Positions 2,283 through 42,669 of a stretch of DNA of 50,684 nt are shown in pieces. The stretch's first letter is position 1, and every line of letters begins with the position of its first letter. The notes under the pieces are model-generated. The model was not told where the DNA came from and searched no databases. It saw only the letters and a list, made by a program, of their open reading frames with translations. Source of the stretch: Deltaproteobacteria bacterium (lineage in GTDB: Bacteria; Desulfobacterota; WTBG01; CAIYCZ01; CAIRTM01); assembly GCA_016875025.1 (NCBI GenBank), contig VGSH01000009.1, positions 1 to 50,684 on the forward strand, written 5' to 3'. A program made the translations under genes and the position numbers.

Positions 2283-3335
2283 TTATAAGCACTTCCAGTA
2301 TGGCTGCGCTACTAAGCGCGCATCCTCGATCTGATCGAACAACGGAGGCCGGGAAGCATGCGCGCCGCAATAGCGGCTGCTCAAAGCATCCGGCAATCCG
2401 CTCTGCATTGTTACTAGTACGCATTGAACCGATTTTCTGAGCGCACCGAGATCATAGCCGCCCTCGAGCACGAATACAGCTTTGCCGCCGCAGCATGCAT
2501 CGGCGATGCGCATAACCGTATCGGTCATGAACGCGAAACCATCCTCGGAAACAAGCATGCCGCCGATCGGATCATCGCGGTGAGAGTCAAAACCGGCCGA
2601 CACGAGCACAAGCTCAGGTGCGTACTCGCGGGCCACGGGATCAAGTATCGTGGAGAAAATATGGGCGTAATCGGAATCGGTTGCGCGGGCCGGAAGCGGG
2701 ACATTCACGGTGTAGCCCTGCCCTTCTCCGCAACCGGTCTCAGTAACAGCGCCGGTTCCGGGGAAAAAAGGATAGCGATGGGCTGAAAACAGCAGCACCT
2801 CCGGCGTGCTTTCAAAAATGTGCTGCGTGCCGTTGGGATGATGCACATCCCAGTCAACGATGAGGATGCGCTGCAGGCCATGCCTGCGCCGGGCATGCTC
2901 GGCGGCAACGGCAACATTGTTAAACAGGCAGAACCCCATCTGCCTGCCGCGCTCGGCATGATGACCGGGAGGGCGCACGAGCGCAAACACGGCGTCAAGG
3001 CTGCCGGACATGACCTCGTCAACCGCGGCGATGCCCCCCCCGGCTGCAAGAAATGCCGCGACACAGGACTGCTCACTGGTTACCGTATCAGGATCAAGAT
3101 AGCGCAGTTTTTCACCGGCAGTGTCGAGAATTTTTTCAATATGTCTCTCGGTATGAACCAGGCACAGCTCATCGATGGCGGCAAACCGGGGCGCAAGAGT
3201 CCTGCAGGTGCTGCCCAGACCGCTTGTTTCAAGCATGGAGCTGATTGCAGAAAGGCGGCGGGGTGTTTCAACATGATGCAGGCCGGTCTGATGCGCTAAA
3301 AACCGTTCATCCCGCACGAGCCCGATCCGCCGCAT
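2283..3335 (-). CDS. Histone-deacetylase-family amidohydrolase (AcuC/HdaH-like)
   Basis: This 350-residue zinc-dependent deacetylase has every catalytic element of the arginase/deacetylase fold. There is a charge-relay histidine pair in RPPGHH (His125-His126). The zinc ligands are Asp163 and His165 in DWDVHH and Asp250 in SAGFDSH. The transition-state tyrosine is Tyr294 in EGGYD. Relatives remove acetyl groups from lysines (AcuC reactivates acetyl-CoA synthetase) or from polyamines. The usual HHGNGT after the zinc ligands is HHPNGT here. No signal peptide is seen, so it is cytoplasmic. It lies between gnd and the acyl-CoA synthetase-like gene on one strand, with 57 bp and 3 bp gaps. The AcuC-AcsA pairing suggests a link in acetylation control, but the partner has lost its usual target lysine. 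Confidence 0.92.
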   Translation of the reverse strand: MRRIGLVRDERFLAHQTGLHHVETPRRLSAISSMLETSGLGSTCRTLAPRFAAIDELCLVHTERHIEKILDTAGEKLRYLDPDTVTSEQSCVAAFLAAGGGIAAVDEVMSGSLDAVFALVRPPGHHAERGRQMGFCLFNNVAVAAEHARRRHGLQRILIVDWDVHHPNGTQHIFESTPEVLLFSAHRYPFFPGTGAVTETGCGEGQGYTVNVPLPARATDSDYAHIFSTILDPVAREYAPELVLVSAGFDSHRDDPIGGMLVSEDGFAFMTDTVMRIADACCGGKAVFVLEGGYDLGALRKSVQCVLVTMQSGLPDALSSRYCGAHASRPPLFDQIEDARLVAQPYWKCL

Positions 3336-4408: not shown

Positions 4409-4562
4409 CAGGTTGTTGAAAAAGTCCTTTTATACAGGCTGTTCAAAAACGCTCGGATGCAAGGCCTGCGAAATCATGAGGAATGAGGCGTACTTTACCG
4501 TACGCCGCAGTGACGAATGATGAGCACAACGCAGCAGATGGGCGTTTTTCAACAGCCTGCTA
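4409..4562. repeat. Palindromic intergenic repeat, copy 1
   Basis: It begins CAGGTTGTTGAAAAAG and ends in TTTTTCAACAGCCTGCTA. Internal arms CAGGCTGTTCAAAAACGC (4435-4452) and GCGTTTTTCAACAGCCTG (4542-4559) pair at 17 of 18 positions, and a central stem GGCGTAC/GTACGCC (4487-4493, 4500-4506) lies between them. Copies 2 and 3 are at 27187 and 40923. The last three bases are, on the minus strand, the TAG stop codon of the adjoining thioredoxin gene. Confidence 0.9.
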
Positions 4563-5156
4563 ACGATGGGATTCATGCTGATGCGCAGGCTCGTGCTCAG
4601 GATCAGGTTGTGCGGCGATCGAGGGCTGCTCCGTAACGGGACACAGTTTCTTTAACGCCGACTCAAATGCGCGTATTTTTTTAAAGCCGTAGATGCGCTT
4701 GACGATTTCACCCTCACGGTTGACGATAAGCGTGGTGGGCAGCATGAAGACCCTGTTGTTGCGCGCGATCTGCAGTGCATTAATGATGTAGGGGGGCTTA
4801 ATGGCGTGGCGGTTAACGAATTCCCGCTGCAGCGCCGGATCGACAGCCAGATCGATATCAAGGCAGATAACCCGGACATCACCGTAATAATAGCGCTCAT
4901 GCAGCGTATTCATAATGGGCAGGAGCTCGATGCATGGCTTGCAGTAAATTGAGCCGAACACCAGCACCATGATGCTGCCGCGCATTTCAGAGGTATTGAT
5001 TTCACTGTTATCGATAAAATTGAACGCGCTGAAATCATGCAGCATATCAGCAGCCAGGGCCGGGACGTTCACAAAACATCCCAGCGCGGCTGCACACAAT
5101 GAAGAAATCAACGGCATCAGAAGTTGTCGGCGCCGGGCACTGCTCTTTATAGGCAT
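4560..5156 (-). CDS. Exported TlpA/ResA-like thioredoxin-fold protein
   Basis: About 198 residues: a basic N-terminus and hydrophobic stretch ending in VPALAA (a plausible signal peptidase I site near residue 36), then a thioredoxin fold with the redox pair CKPC at 72-75 and a cis-proline region MLPTTLIVN. The C-terminal tail is rich in His, Glu and Pro and may bind metal. Proteins of this class reduce or shuffle disulfides in the periplasm, for example during cytochrome c maturation. The ATG at 5156 puts the positively charged n-region directly before the hydrophobic core; a longer frame begins at 5228 inside the upstream gene, which ends at 5186. The 29-bp gap suggests cotranscription with that gene. 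The stop codon is provided by the end of a palindromic repeat. Confidence 0.82.
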   Translation of the reverse strand: MPIKSSARRRQLLMPLISSLCAAALGCFVNVPALAADMLHDFSAFNFIDNSEINTSEMRGSIMVLVFGSIYCKPCIELLPIMNTLHERYYYGDVRVICLDIDLAVDPALQREFVNRHAIKPPYIINALQIARNNRVFMLPTTLIVNREGEIVKRIYGFKKIRAFESALKKLCPVTEQPSIAAQPDPEHEPAHQHESHR

Positions 5157-5185: not shown

Positions 5186-6862
5186 TCAATGATCGCAGCC
5201 CTGCAGGTTCAAGCCGTGCTGGCTGCACAGGATATCTCCGTCAAGCACAATGTACATGCCTCCGGTGGGACACCCCTGCAGCGAGCTGCCGCTCATGATT
5301 TTTTGAAGCGACCCTTCGTCTAACATAAAATCAGGCTGTTGTGCGGCAGCCTTGCGGGCCAGATTCTTTATCTTACATATAACCGAAAAACACTCCTTTT
5401 TCCAGTAGTCCTCACGAAAACGATATTCGGAGAAATCGCCAAAATATTCGCGGGCCCTGTTCATAGCCTCGTAAATCATGCTCGATGACATGGTGGCGGC
5501 CGTGACAGCGTCAACCGAAGGGTTGAACACAAACGGCACGAACAGACTGCGGCCGATGAGATTTTTTTTCATTTTTGCAATGTCGGCTTCATCCCATTCC
5601 ACATTGCCGTACTTGGTAATCTCAAGGGGGATAAAGTCCGTTACAACACCGTTCTGGTCGAACACATACCCGAAATGGGTATCATGACAGACATCGCACA
5701 TGGTGATACCTGATTCAACACGGGCAAAAAAGAACAGGCCGCTGCCCTGCGGAGAAGCAGTGATTACATAGAGATCCTGACGGTTTTCAAGTGTCAGATG
5801 CTCAATCTCAGCCACCTGATGGCCGGCTGCAGCAATGCGCTGACGGATGAGTTCCTGAATCTCAGTCGGGCTCAATTGCGGCCTAGGCGTATATTCGGTG
5901 CCCTCAAAGATCCGTTCAGCCGCAAGCTGTGACAATGATTCTGCACGGTACACAATCCGTCCGAATTCATTGATGCACAGGACCGTCGGCTGATCGCCCA
6001 CATCAAACAGCTCCCTGACGGTGTTGCCCTTGTCGATCGCGCAGACCAGCGGCTCGGGCACGGCATGTGCGGCGCAATCGCTTCCTTCAGGCGGAAAAAT
6101 AAATACTTTGATCGCATTTTTCAATGCACTGTTTTTCAGCACTTCATTCTGCCGGGACATGGTGCGCAGGTCATTTTCGATGGTGCGGGCCTGTGATGAA
6201 GCAAAATAGAGAATGAAGCGCTCGTTGGCCAGAGATGCGGCTGTAATGTCCCGGCCGCCAGCCTGGAAAGCAAAGGGCGGCACTCTATTGCCGGGCTGTG
6301 TGCCGGTCAGGCTGCTTCTCAGGGTATGGCGTAAGCTGTCAAGATAGCGCTCTGCCGAGGATACGCCTCCGGCATGATAGTCAACGATAAAGCCCATATC
6401 ATCCCTGCGGATGACATAGGTGTGGGGTGTGCCGCGGATATTTCCGGTGCTGGTGAACAGTGTCTTATCCTGATCGCTGAGAATGGGATAGGTTACAGCA
6501 AACTCCTCATTGAAAGTTGTGATTTCCTCCAGAGAGTTGCCCACTGCCAGCCCAAGCAGACACACCCTGTCGCGTAGATCGCTGTCTGCTGCAATGGCCT
6601 GCTTGAGTTCATTGAAAATACTCACCTGAATTCTACAAGTATGGCAATAAACATTTAAAAATTCTAATATAATTACATCGCATGATATTTCGGAAAGCTG
6701 AATCTTGCCTTTATGCGGCACCTTGAGATAGGCACTGTGCTCAGGGCTCAGGGTATTAGGAACCGTGAAGTCCGGAAATGGATCGCCGATAGTGAGGGCC
6801 TGCGCGGGAACAGCACAGAGCAGCAGGCATCCGATCAAGGCTGCGGTAACATGTAATTTCAT
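5186..6862 (-). CDS. Exported thioredoxin / thioredoxin-like / FMN-binding-like multidomain redox protein
   Basis: 558 residues. A signal peptide (1-22) is followed by a TlpA-like thioredoxin domain with CHTC at 73-76 and cis-Pro in GTPHTYV. A second thioredoxin/peroxiredoxin-like domain (about 190-310) lacks a CxxC. Next comes a domain with CDVC at 389-392 and a segment VDAVTAATMSS (450-460), which resembles the flavinylation motif of FMN-binding domains (RnfG/NqrC type). The C-terminus holds CPTGG (531-535) and CSQHG (546-550). A paralogue with the same domain order lies at 42677-44347. The stacked cysteine pairs and flavin-type domain suggest periplasmic thiol-flavin electron transfer; this is inference. 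The flavin motif departs from the usual SGATxT, so cofactor binding is less certain here than in the paralogue. It is followed by a thioredoxin gene and preceded by a good promoter. Confidence 0.8.
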   Translation of the reverse strand: MKLHVTAALIGCLLLCAVPAQALTIGDPFPDFTVPNTLSPEHSAYLKVPHKGKIQLSEISCDVIILEFLNVYCHTCRIQVSIFNELKQAIAADSDLRDRVCLLGLAVGNSLEEITTFNEEFAVTYPILSDQDKTLFTSTGNIRGTPHTYVIRRDDMGFIVDYHAGGVSSAERYLDSLRHTLRSSLTGTQPGNRVPPFAFQAGGRDITAASLANERFILYFASSQARTIENDLRTMSRQNEVLKNSALKNAIKVFIFPPEGSDCAAHAVPEPLVCAIDKGNTVRELFDVGDQPTVLCINEFGRIVYRAESLSQLAAERIFEGTEYTPRPQLSPTEIQELIRQRIAAAGHQVAEIEHLTLENRQDLYVITASPQGSGLFFFARVESGITMCDVCHDTHFGYVFDQNGVVTDFIPLEITKYGNVEWDEADIAKMKKNLIGRSLFVPFVFNPSVDAVTAATMSSSMIYEAMNRAREYFGDFSEYRFREDYWKKECFSVICKIKNLARKAAAQQPDFMLDEGSLQKIMSGSSLQGCPTGGMYIVLDGDILCSQHGLNLQGCDH

Positions 6863-8739: not shown

Positions 8740-9816
8740 TTACGGCAGTTTACGGCCGTCCGCCCACAGCAGGGCTTCTGCAGCATTAATATCTTTCTCG
8801 ACTTCTGTGCGCTCCTCAGGCTTGTCATAACTGCGGAAAGAGATATGCACGGTTCCCGGATCCTCCGGCATAGTCGAAGGCACTATGTGAATAATACGCT
8901 CTTTGCCGCCGTAGGTTTTCGCAGCATGATAATACACATTGAAAAATGACTTTACCTGCGGGCGCAGTTCATAACCGCTGTCGCGCGCCCAGGCCTCGAT
9001 CATCGCGATCGCGGGCTCCAGATCAGCCGTAAAGCGGCTGCGGGAATAGTAAATCTTATCCGTGCTGACCTTTTCGGTCCAGGGTTTGGGCTTGAATTTT
9101 TTCAGGCTCAAATCAGACCGGTTGGCCGGCTGGAGCGAATCCCAGTAACCGCGAAACTGCTCGACATTTTCACGGGGCTCAAGTCCAAGTACCTTGACGC
9201 GCACCTCATTGGCAAATGCCTCAACGCGCTCAACGACCAGTGATTCCCAGATCTCACGGCCGATCCAGACCGCGCCTTCCTTGGCCAGCTTTTCGAGCAG
9301 CTTGATCTGCAGCCGGTCGGTCATACCAAGAGACGTCATCACCTGGCGCCCGCCGAAACCGCCAATACAGGTGTATTTCAGTTCAGGATAGCGATCATAT
9401 ATCGGCTGCAGATAATTGCGCCCGGCAATCAGGTGGGCTGGTTTTCCCGGATACGTGAGCACTTGGGTTTCATCGCTGTCGCCGCACACGAGGAAGAAAC
9501 AGAGCTCTTTTTCTGCAAGCACGCTTCGGTTGGCCTCGATAAACTCATGCATTCCCTTGAGCGGACCTTCGTTGCGCGTGGCACTGCCGAGAATAATATA
9601 ATCATAGGGCTCAAGGGTGGTGATCTGCGGGATGGACTTGACATCGAGACGGTGCTCATGGCCGATGATTGCCTTGATCCAGTAGGCAACCTCCACGGTT
9701 GAGCCGTAAATCGAATCATAGACCAGCAGTCCTTTTTTTTCGGCTGCGAATGCTCCGTACGGAATAAGCAACAACGCAACCAGGGCCATCACTACGGGTA
9801 CAATCCTTCGTTTCAT
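8740..9816 (-). CDS. Exported flavodoxin-domain protein
   Basis: 358 residues. A clear signal peptide (MKRRIVPVVMALVALLLIPYG..., cleavage near AFA-AE at 24-25) precedes a flavodoxin-like domain starting LLVYDSIYGST, which fits the FMN phosphate-binding loop. It also keeps ILGSATRNEG and a later GGFGGRQ segment. The pattern resembles HemG/flavodoxin-5 proteins, which are normally cytoplasmic. The C-terminal ~130 residues (from about 230) match nothing I recognise; they contain no cysteine pairs or membrane segments. A perfect Shine-Dalgarno (AAAGGAGGT) precedes the ATG. An FMN-dependent redox role outside the cytoplasm is inferred. It sits near two exported thioredoxin proteins, which makes a functional link conceivable. 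Confidence 0.8.
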   Translation of the reverse strand: MKRRIVPVVMALVALLLIPYGAFAAEKKGLLVYDSIYGSTVEVAYWIKAIIGHEHRLDVKSIPQITTLEPYDYIILGSATRNEGPLKGMHEFIEANRSVLAEKELCFFLVCGDSDETQVLTYPGKPAHLIAGRNYLQPIYDRYPELKYTCIGGFGGRQVMTSLGMTDRLQIKLLEKLAKEGAVWIGREIWESLVVERVEAFANEVRVKVLGLEPRENVEQFRGYWDSLQPANRSDLSLKKFKPKPWTEKVSTDKIYYSRSRFTADLEPAIAMIEAWARDSGYELRPQVKSFFNVYYHAAKTYGGKERIIHIVPSTMPEDPGTVHISFRSYDKPEERTEVEKDINAAEALLWADGRKLP

Positions 9817-40922: not shown

Positions 40923-41076
40923 CAGGGTGTTGAAAAAGTCTTTTTATACAGGCTGTTCAAAAATGCTCAGATGCAAGGCGTGCGAAATCATGAGGAATGA
41001 GGCGTGCTGTGCGGTACGCCGCAGTGACGAATGATGAGCACAACGCAGCAGATGGGCGTTTTTCAACAGCCTGCTA
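40923..41076. repeat. Palindromic intergenic repeat, copy 3
   Basis: Nearly the same sequence as the copy at 4409: it begins CAGGGTGTTGAAAAAGTC, has an inner CAGGCTGTTCAAAAATGC arm and ends GGGCGTTTTTCAACAGCCTGCTA. The last three bases are the TAG stop codon of the peptide-binding protein gene on the minus strand. Confidence 0.9.
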
Positions 41077-42669
41077 ATCAACAATCCGGATGCGTTCAAA
41101 GCGCAGGGGCATGTCATTCATGCCGGGGATGAACTGGATGTTTGAGCGCATGCCGTAAAACATTTCCATCTGATAGAGCGGCACAACAAGCGCCTCTTCC
41201 AGCAGGTAGCGGTCAAGTTTCTGCAGTTCGGCGCAGACCTGCTCGGTCTCGCCGGCCGCAACCGCGGCGCTGTAGAGCGCATCAATCGGCGAGTCCTGCT
41301 TGCGCAAGGTGCCGAAATTAAAGATCCCCCCCGAATGCAGGAAAGCAAAATAAAAATGGGTGCCGGAACCGAACAGATGCGGCCAGCCGCTGACCAGCCA
41401 CAGGTCATAGGAATCCGGCACGGGTTCTCCCCGGAGCCTGGGCTCGATCATCTGCCTGAAAATTTCTTCGCGTGAAAGGGCCGTCACCTCAAGCGTGATG
41501 CCCGCACGGGCCAGCTGCTCCTTCAGCACAGCCGCGGCGGTCACGGACGGCTCATGCGCGCTCGTCAGCATGCGCAGCGCAATGCCTTCGCCGAAACCGG
41601 CCTGCGCCATAAGCGCGCGAGCTTTTTTTATATCCTCGCGGTACTGGAGCGGGCCCGGGCAATGGCCCAGCGTGCCCCGGGGCGCAACCGAATACAGGGG
41701 CAGGCCGAACCCGCCCAAAGCGCGTCGTATCATTTCCGTGCGGTCGATTGCATGCTGGACAGCCTGACGGACCTCGATCTGCGCAAGCGGTCCGCCCTTG
41801 TCCACATTGAACAGCAGCGCGGCACTGCGCAGGCTGAGCTCGGAACCGACCTTGATTTTTTTCAAGCGCGGCTTCCCGGGGTCGCCACCCTGGGGAAGGC
41901 TGACGAGCAGATCGAGCGTTCCATTGCGCAGCGCCTCCCACTGCCTTCCCGTCTCAAGAGCGTGAAAAACGAGCTCGTCGAAATTACAGTCGAGACTTCG
42001 CCAGTACTGTTCATTTCTGACAAAGTGAATCTTCAGATATTCGGCTGTGTCATCAATGTAAAAAAAACGGAACGGGCCGGTGCCCATCGGATAGCGCGAA
42101 AAATAGGACTCGCCCACGCGGGTGTAATACACCGGCGGAATTATAAAACCGATGGCCGCAAGTTTTCTGAGCAGCATACCGTCGGGCACGCGTGTTGTGA
42201 TATCGACCGTATAATCATCCACCGCGGTAACCGACTCGATGGTGTCGAGCAGAAACCGCCCTGCAAAGCGGCTGCGCGGATTTTTCATCAGCTCAAGCGT
42301 GAAGGTAACGGCGGCTGCGTTAAAAATCTCACCGCTGTGAAACCGCACGCCGTGCCGCAGAAAAAACCTGACCGTACGCTCATCGAGCCGCTCCCATGTT
42401 TCGGCCAGCATCGGCAGCACCGTGTTCGTGGTGAAGTCAATGGTCACAAGCGTTTCAAACACCTGGTGCTGAAGATGGAAATACTGCATCTGACGGCTTT
42501 TCAGCGGATCAGGCGTGCTTTCAGACGAGGTTCCGAACGCCTGGTCGAAAACGCTGACGTTCAGCTGTCTGCGCTGCCGGTCCTGAGCAAAAGCCGGGCC
42601 GCAGATCGTCCACATACCAGCAGTACACCACATGCACACAATTGCCATTACGCCTGCGAGCCTGATCAT
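41074..42669 (-). CDS. ABC-type peptide/solute-binding protein (SBP family 5, DppA/OppA-like)
   Basis: 531 residues. A signal peptide (1-28, PAFA-QD) precedes the family 5 fold: an N-terminal QVFETLVTIDFTTNTVLPMLAETWE segment, VRFHSGEIFNAAAVTFTLE, and a later MGTGPFRF. These proteins capture peptides, nickel or other ligands in the periplasm. No lipobox is seen, so it is soluble. No permease or ATPase genes lie nearby, which is unusual. The gene starts 7 bp after the thioredoxin/FMN-binding gene, so the two are cotranscribed. Its stop codon comes from the end of a palindromic repeat. Confidence 0.9.
   Translation of the reverse strand: MIRLAGVMAIVCMWCTAGMWTICGPAFAQDRQRRQLNVSVFDQAFGTSSESTPDPLKSRQMQYFHLQHQVFETLVTIDFTTNTVLPMLAETWERLDERTVRFFLRHGVRFHSGEIFNAAAVTFTLELMKNPRSRFAGRFLLDTIESVTAVDDYTVDITTRVPDGMLLRKLAAIGFIIPPVYYTRVGESYFSRYPMGTGPFRFFYIDDTAEYLKIHFVRNEQYWRSLDCNFDELVFHALETGRQWEALRNGTLDLLVSLPQGGDPGKPRLKKIKVGSELSLRSAALLFNVDKGGPLAQIEVRQAVQHAIDRTEMIRRALGGFGLPLYSVAPRGTLGHCPGPLQYREDIKKARALMAQAGFGEGIALRMLTSAHEPSVTAAAVLKEQLARAGITLEVTALSREEIFRQMIEPRLRGEPVPDSYDLWLVSGWPHLFGSGTHFYFAFLHSGGIFNFGTLRKQDSPIDALYSAAVAAGETEQVCAELQKLDRYLLEEALVVPLYQMEMFYGMRSNIQFIPGMNDMPLRFERIRIVD

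Follow-up and report, generated by a model that had tools for sequence, protein, structure and literature searches.

The window analysed here, a stretch of 50,684 nucleotides from a member of the Desulfobacterota, carries two genes whose products, proteins A and B, share one order of four modules (Table 1). In protein A a signal peptide is followed by a thioredoxin domain (Trx1), a thioredoxin-like domain (Trx2), a CxxCH-FMN_bind-like domain and a pilin-type cysteine tail. The open reading frame starts with ATG, with GGGAG directly 5' of the start, and its N-terminal signal-peptide-like stretch ends in AQA as judged by eye. The FMN domain extends from around CDVCH to DAVTAATMSS and a helix, and the tail carries C491, CPTGG (531-535) and CSQHG (546-550). 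The whole-chain model of A had a pLDDT of 91.8 and a pTM of 0.83. Protein B presents its motifs in an A-like order: CDSC (83-86), CDVC (383-386), DGISGAT (442-448), CPDGG (524-528) and CSLHG (543-547). These motif positions in both reading frames confirmed the proposal of a first-pass annotation that the four-module order of A is repeated by B. The FMN-domain pair reads CxxCT in B, without a haem histidine, and CxxCH in A, where it is a possible haem c site; this ambiguity had been overlooked in the first pass. The genome that contains the window (G000, 254 contigs) encodes four members of the family, which comprise A, B, a tail-less paralogue (G000:C74) and a two-module protein (G000:C1).

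Both genes have a neighbour that is retained elsewhere. The order of A followed by a ResA/TlpA-like thioredoxin gene was kept in three genomes (G000, G001 and G005). B was followed by a family-5 solute-binding protein gene in five genomes from four genera (other loci L161, L162, L163 and L164), with the two genes lying within approximately 15 bp of each other or overlapping, depending on the start chosen. The best NCBIfam matches of the solute-binding protein, NikA and GsiB, were far under the cut-off. The other genes flanking A and B differed outside the window's own genus. Near A, positions 8740-9816 (-) encode a protein that has a flavodoxin domain (Flavodoxin_5, 1.5e-16) and an N-terminus resembling a signal peptide. 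It is apparently exported, which is unusual for a flavodoxin, and its gene was also kept near A in G001. The gene run downstream of A also includes a histone-deacetylase-family protein (2283-3335, (-)), conserved in G001.

Table 1. Positions of proteins A and B, their partner genes and the modules of A within the window
Feature	Position	Strand	Basis
ResA/TlpA-like thioredoxin, exported (CKPC), directly downstream of A; ATG chosen by eye	4560..5156	(-)	Pfam, NCBIfam
Protein A, four-module exported protein, 558 aa	5186..6862	(-)	ORF, orthologues, whole-chain model
Pilin-type Cys tail of A, residues 480-558	5189..5425	(-)	Tail profile; outside matches mainly prepilins
CxxCH-FMN_bind-like domain of A, residues 326-478	5429..5887	(-)	FMN_bind profile, hhalign, Foldseek (weak)
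Putative flavinylation motif of A, DAVTAATMSS, residues 451-460; predicted acceptor T457	5483..5512	(-)	Thr/Ser conservation
CDVCH of A, start of FMN domain, residues 389-393 (C389, C392, H393)	5684..5698	(-)	Conservation
Trx2 of A, predicted thioredoxin fold without active-site Cys pair, residues 186-325	5888..6307	(-)	Secondary structure of model
Trx1 of A, ResA/CcmG-type thioredoxin domain, residues 23-182	6317..6796	(-)	Pfam, NCBIfam, Foldseek
CHTC active-site pair of A, residues 73-76 (C73, C76)	6635..6646	(-)	Invariant in 46/46 aligned members
Signal peptide of A, residues 1-22 (MKLHVTAALIGCLLLCAVPAQA)	6797..6862	(-)	Read from sequence; model helix 2-15
Family-5 extracellular solute-binding protein, partner of B, 7 bp apart	41074..42669	(-)	PF00496, 1.7e-60
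Protein B, second four-module protein, 556 aa	42677..44347	(-)	ORF, profiles, orthologues

Identity of the thioredoxin, FMN_bind-like and tail modules

Trx1 is a thioredoxin fold that carries a CxxC pair. In A it matched Pfam AhpC-TSA (4.6e-10) and NCBIfam ResA (1.2e-10, 41.6 bits); B scored 100.8 bits against ResA, and both values lie under the cut-off of 170. Searching the PDB by Foldseek with the whole chain identified ResA, CcmG and StoA as the best folds for Trx1. The likeness to ResA, CcmG and TlpA concerns the sequence and fold of Trx1; in contrast to these proteins, Trx1 of A is just one module of a flavin fusion and its active site is CHTC. Known thioredoxins of the ResA/CcmG class are mostly reductants. 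The secondary structure of the predicted model suggested that Trx2 is also a thioredoxin fold, and the equivalent region of B matched redoxin profiles (Pfam, NCBIfam). Trx2 had been described in the first pass as free of cysteines. This held for the absence of a CxxC pair but not in full, as Trx2 of A contains three cysteines, which are not conserved.

The domain containing CDVC had been claimed to be FMN-binding-like, and profile comparisons and structure prediction agreed with this. Scores against FMN_bind (PF04205) were 16.2 bits for A and 21.9 bits for B and did not reach the curated cut-off of 22. Across 46 members of the domain, FMN_bind was the only recurring Pfam family, matched in 39 at E values no higher than 0.1 (best 6.9e-6). 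Profile-profile alignment by hhalign to canonical FMN_bind proteins gave 90.5% at an E value of 1.3e-6, with the motifs aligned. Because a whole-chain Foldseek search was topped by thioredoxins, the C-terminal half of A was modelled alone (pLDDT 93.3, pTM 0.85) and compared with 350,542 PDB chains. The best two matches were RnfG from two Rnf complexes; both were weak (probability 0.93 and 0.84, E 0.058 and 0.13) and were followed by noise. Confidence in this model was lower around the CxxC pair than in its surroundings. Searches of the FMN domain against PDB sequences returned only matches at E 0.5-1, which were not counted as proof; among them were an FMN4 domain and, aligned at the motif, an uncharacterised protein. 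Taken together, three tests of moderate weight agree in indicating that the CxxC domain is FMN_bind-like. RnfG, NqrC, NosR and PceC are FMN_bind proteins flavinylated by ApbE, and A and B appear to share with them the fold class, the D-x-x-[ST]-x-A-T motif and a linkage to ApbE (by co-occurrence and adjacency). In contrast to these proteins, A and B score below the cut-off, carry a CxxC pair at the edge of the domain and are fused to thioredoxin domains, and the Gly of the motif is often replaced in the family by Ala, Ser or Thr.

A profile of the tail, seeded from A and B only, found mostly true prepilins with a GFTLIEL-type N-terminus outside the family, in support of the suggestion that the tail resembles pseudopilin-type proteins. 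None of these prepilins was in the seed, and they share a C-helix-CPxGGxY-CSxH arrangement with A and B. The profile also matched two other multi-domain proteins. Unlike type IV prepilins, which have the module at their C-terminus, A and B have a conventional signal peptide followed by a thioredoxin domain, lack a class III prepilin N-terminus and carry the tail after a flavin domain. There was no Pfam model for the tail, and a literature search for CPxGG together with pilin found nothing. Several families contain prepilins (L179:85-1056, L191 and L194) in which the Cys module precedes a similar C-terminal domain with SGMAGFR near its end. A long open frame at L197 encodes a non-pilin protein with two copies of a C-CPxxGxY-C module.

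Conservation of the family and its linkage to ApbE

A small uncultured class contains the orthologues of A, which occur in its families f1, f2 and f4; those of B come mainly from f1, and forms that lack the tail were found in f1 and f4. Because orthologues of both proteins occur in other genomes, the four-module order is not a chance fusion, as the first-pass annotation had held. That annotation had missed a more widespread two-module core (S), which consists of one thioredoxin and the CxxC-FMN domain (approximately 385 residues) and was present, among the matches listed, in 50 of the 395 Desulfobacterota genomes sampled, from 16 families. The list of core matches reaches about E 1e-37, which is below the range of the two-module matches. 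Genes for S and A lie head to head in four genomes (L008, L009, L012 and L014). A scan of the neighbours of two-module genes outside families f12, f14 and f15 identified no recurrent partner of clear function. In genomes of f17 (L142 and L143) three S genes stand in tandem and adjoin an FdhE-like gene.

Alignment of 46 members revealed that both Cys pairs, N109, D130, P146, D451 and A456 are invariant and that the T457 position is at least 90% conserved. Both Cys pairs were intact in 92 of 93 distinct members. The sole exception, a two-module member of G292 (L145:4287-5438 (+)), has CLTS and CDLG and has lost one cysteine from each pair; this double loss is a single case. The degenerate gene adjoins an intact copy. 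All 91 readable members have Thr or Ser as the predicted acceptor residue, and several, including members from f12, have the canonical [S/T]GAT motif. A histidine follows the FMN-domain CxxC in 81 of 93 members and is missing from the other 12 (B proteins, three with CxxCE and one other), in which the cysteines remain. In a tree of the FMN domain, B (support 100) and S (91/84) were separate from A, and the A clade was unsupported (45). The root of this tree is unknown, so one origin of the four-module order cannot be distinguished from two.

The first-pass annotation had also noted a flavinylation-like segment in A. Of the 50 genomes that carry the core, 49 encode ApbE, compared with 132 of the 345 without the core (Fisher P = 1.3e-17; core matches listed), and most of these 132 genomes encode conventional FMN_bind proteins. 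When only genomes lacking a canonical FMN_bind protein (PF04205 match at E below 1e-9) were considered, ApbE was encoded by 25 of the 26 core-bearing genomes, from nine families, and by 13 of the 219 that lack the core (P = 1.4e-23); a fragment of A is present in G009, one of those 13. The same pattern was observed within family f12, where ApbE occurred in 7/7 genomes with the core and 0/5 without (core matches listed). No phylogenetic correction was applied to the P values, and the underlying genome lists were copied by hand from tables. In 10 genomes from three families apbE and the core gene are same-strand neighbours, and in most cases they overlap; apbE lies downstream in seven f12 genomes and one f15 genome and upstream in two f14 genomes. 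The apbE gene that adjoins the core gene of G204 (f15; L152:2249-3317) is split over two frames, by a frameshift or an assembly error. The window genome encodes an ApbE of its own (G000:C176) and a separate canonical FMN_bind protein of 205 residues; about half of the core-bearing genomes have no such FMN_bind protein. The association with ApbE, which is independent of the fold, is the strongest evidence for covalent FMN; both co-occurrence and adjacency support the first-pass reading of the segment, and the attachment of FMN itself, though very probable, is inferred. A 2021 survey of flavinylation reported that genomes with orphan apbE remain, which implies unidentified substrates (PMC8238504), and a 2024 study added Flavodoxin_4 and FMN_red as substrates. 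Our sample contains 38 genomes that encode ApbE but no canonical FMN_bind protein, and 25 of them carry the thioredoxin-FMN family.

A possible thiol-flavin relay and its direction

We consider it probable that A, B and their two-module relatives are exported single-chain relays between thiols and flavin. Computation established the architecture, its conservation and the linkage to ApbE and gave moderate support for the fold class; flavin attachment, thiol-flavin transfer, its direction and the partners are inferred. ApbE would attach FMN covalently to the Thr of the D-x-x-[ST]-x-A-T motif in a divergent FMN_bind domain. Two electrons would then pass between substrate thiols or disulfides and the CxxC of the ResA-like Trx1, between this pair and the CxxC that lies at the FMN domain's edge, and from there to FMN, which may exchange electrons with a respiratory carrier in the envelope. 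Trx2 would serve as a spacer without redox activity, and the pilin-type tail would have a structural role or be used for docking. Among the points that count against this reading are that Trx1 belongs to a mostly reductant class, that the RnfG fold matches are weak and that CxxCH could bind haem c.

The order of modules is that of QSOX (quiescin sulfhydryl oxidase), a eukaryotic enzyme that makes disulfides, in which electrons move from substrate thiols to a thioredoxin CxxC, a CxxC beside FAD, FAD and finally oxygen; an extra inactive Trx2 is present in metazoan QSOX and absent from the plant and protist enzymes, and a C-terminal CxxC is common to all of them (PMC3616962). The family likewise combines an active thioredoxin, an optional inactive second thioredoxin, a CxxC next to the flavin and C-terminal cysteines, and exists in one-thioredoxin and two-thioredoxin forms, of which the latter usually has the extra C-terminal cysteines. 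Unlike QSOX, its flavin domain is FMN_bind-like rather than the helical FAD fold of Erv/ALR, its FMN is predicted to be covalent, and the family is bacterial and probably anaerobic, with sulfhydryl oxidase activity only inferred. The resemblance is one of analogy, not homology. We lean slightly towards net thiol oxidation, that is disulfide making without O2, over disulfide reduction, and regard the direction as undecided. It is no more than a tentative possibility that the family is a convergently evolved, O2-independent bacterial counterpart of QSOX, in which a ResA-like thioredoxin was joined to an FMN domain that ApbE flavinylates and that has a CxxC pair of its own, and that it makes disulfides in the envelope of Desulfobacterota whose genomes lack DsbB and VKOR. 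In favour of oxidation, VKOR was found in none of 69 genomes examined and DsbB in one, while the reducing route CcdA/DsbD is widespread; the mostly reductant class of Trx1 argues against it. A role for the core as a DsbB/VKOR replacement was not shown; because core-less genomes of the same families also lack both, the core is not simply such a replacement. Replacement of CcdA/DsbD by the core was rejected, with CcdA/DsbD present in 62 of the 69 genomes.

The relay could also run in reverse. FMN reduced at the membrane by Rnf, quinol or a cytochrome would then pass electrons to the CxxC pair and on to Trx1, which would reduce periplasmic disulfides, so that the protein would do the work of a thioredoxin reductase outside the cytoplasm, with covalently bound FMN. 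We regard this as rather unlikely, although the ResA-, CcmG- and StoA-like fold of Trx1 and the separate ResA/TlpA-like thioredoxin after A in three genomes are in its favor, flavinylated proteins usually carry electrons outward, and flavinylation clusters with thioredoxin-like proteins fed by DsbD have been described (PMC8238504). The QSOX-like layout argues for the opposite direction, no dedicated electron donor lies beside the genes, and the prevalence of CcdA/DsbD means that the usual reducing route is already in place.

Two further readings were considered. ResA keeps haem-binding cysteines reduced in trans, and CxxCH could be a c-type haem site beside covalent FMN whose cysteines are kept reduced in cis by Trx1. 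CxxCH occurs in all A proteins and most two-module members, and Trx1 belongs to the thioredoxin class involved in cytochrome c maturation. The retention of the cysteines where the histidine is lost indicates that haem is not the general function of the pair, and in the degenerate G292 member the FMN-domain cysteine was lost jointly with that of Trx1; we judge a flavocytochrome improbable overall, but haem is not excluded where the histidine is kept, as in A. Hardly more credible is a flavinylated carrier in which CxxC is structural or binds metal and Trx1 is separate, the fusion merely co-localising two activities. No measurement places the two Cys pairs in contact, and the lower model confidence around CxxC also speaks for this separation; however, almost every member has the pair, its only loss coincided with that of a Trx1 cysteine, and QSOX demonstrates that such an order can work as a relay. 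The thiol-flavin relay remains our preferred reading.

No description of a thioredoxin-FMN fusion was found in the open-access literature (subscription literature and protein-database annotation were not covered), in line with the first-pass statement that no described system with such a layout is known. Of the two outcomes that the first pass had set as refutations, a CDVC domain unlike FMN-binding folds and a published family of identical arrangement with a known role, neither was encountered, the first with the weak fold matches given above and the second within the open-access literature. Hybrid thioredoxin/flavinylation clusters with DUF3570 and DsbD are known (PMC8238504). These DsbD-DUF3570-Trx-DUF4266 clusters likewise combine ApbE flavinylation with thioredoxin chemistry, but they do so in separate proteins with a flavinylated DUF3570, whereas A and B are single chains.

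Thiol-disulfide proteins and ApbE-flavinylated proteins have been treated as parallel classes of envelope carrier, and this family joins both in one chain. It represents a testable ApbE substrate for genomes that otherwise have none that can be named. If the relay is oxidative, it could explain how disulfides are made in bacteria without DsbB or VKOR; if it is reductive, it would be a new way of feeding periplasmic thioredoxins.
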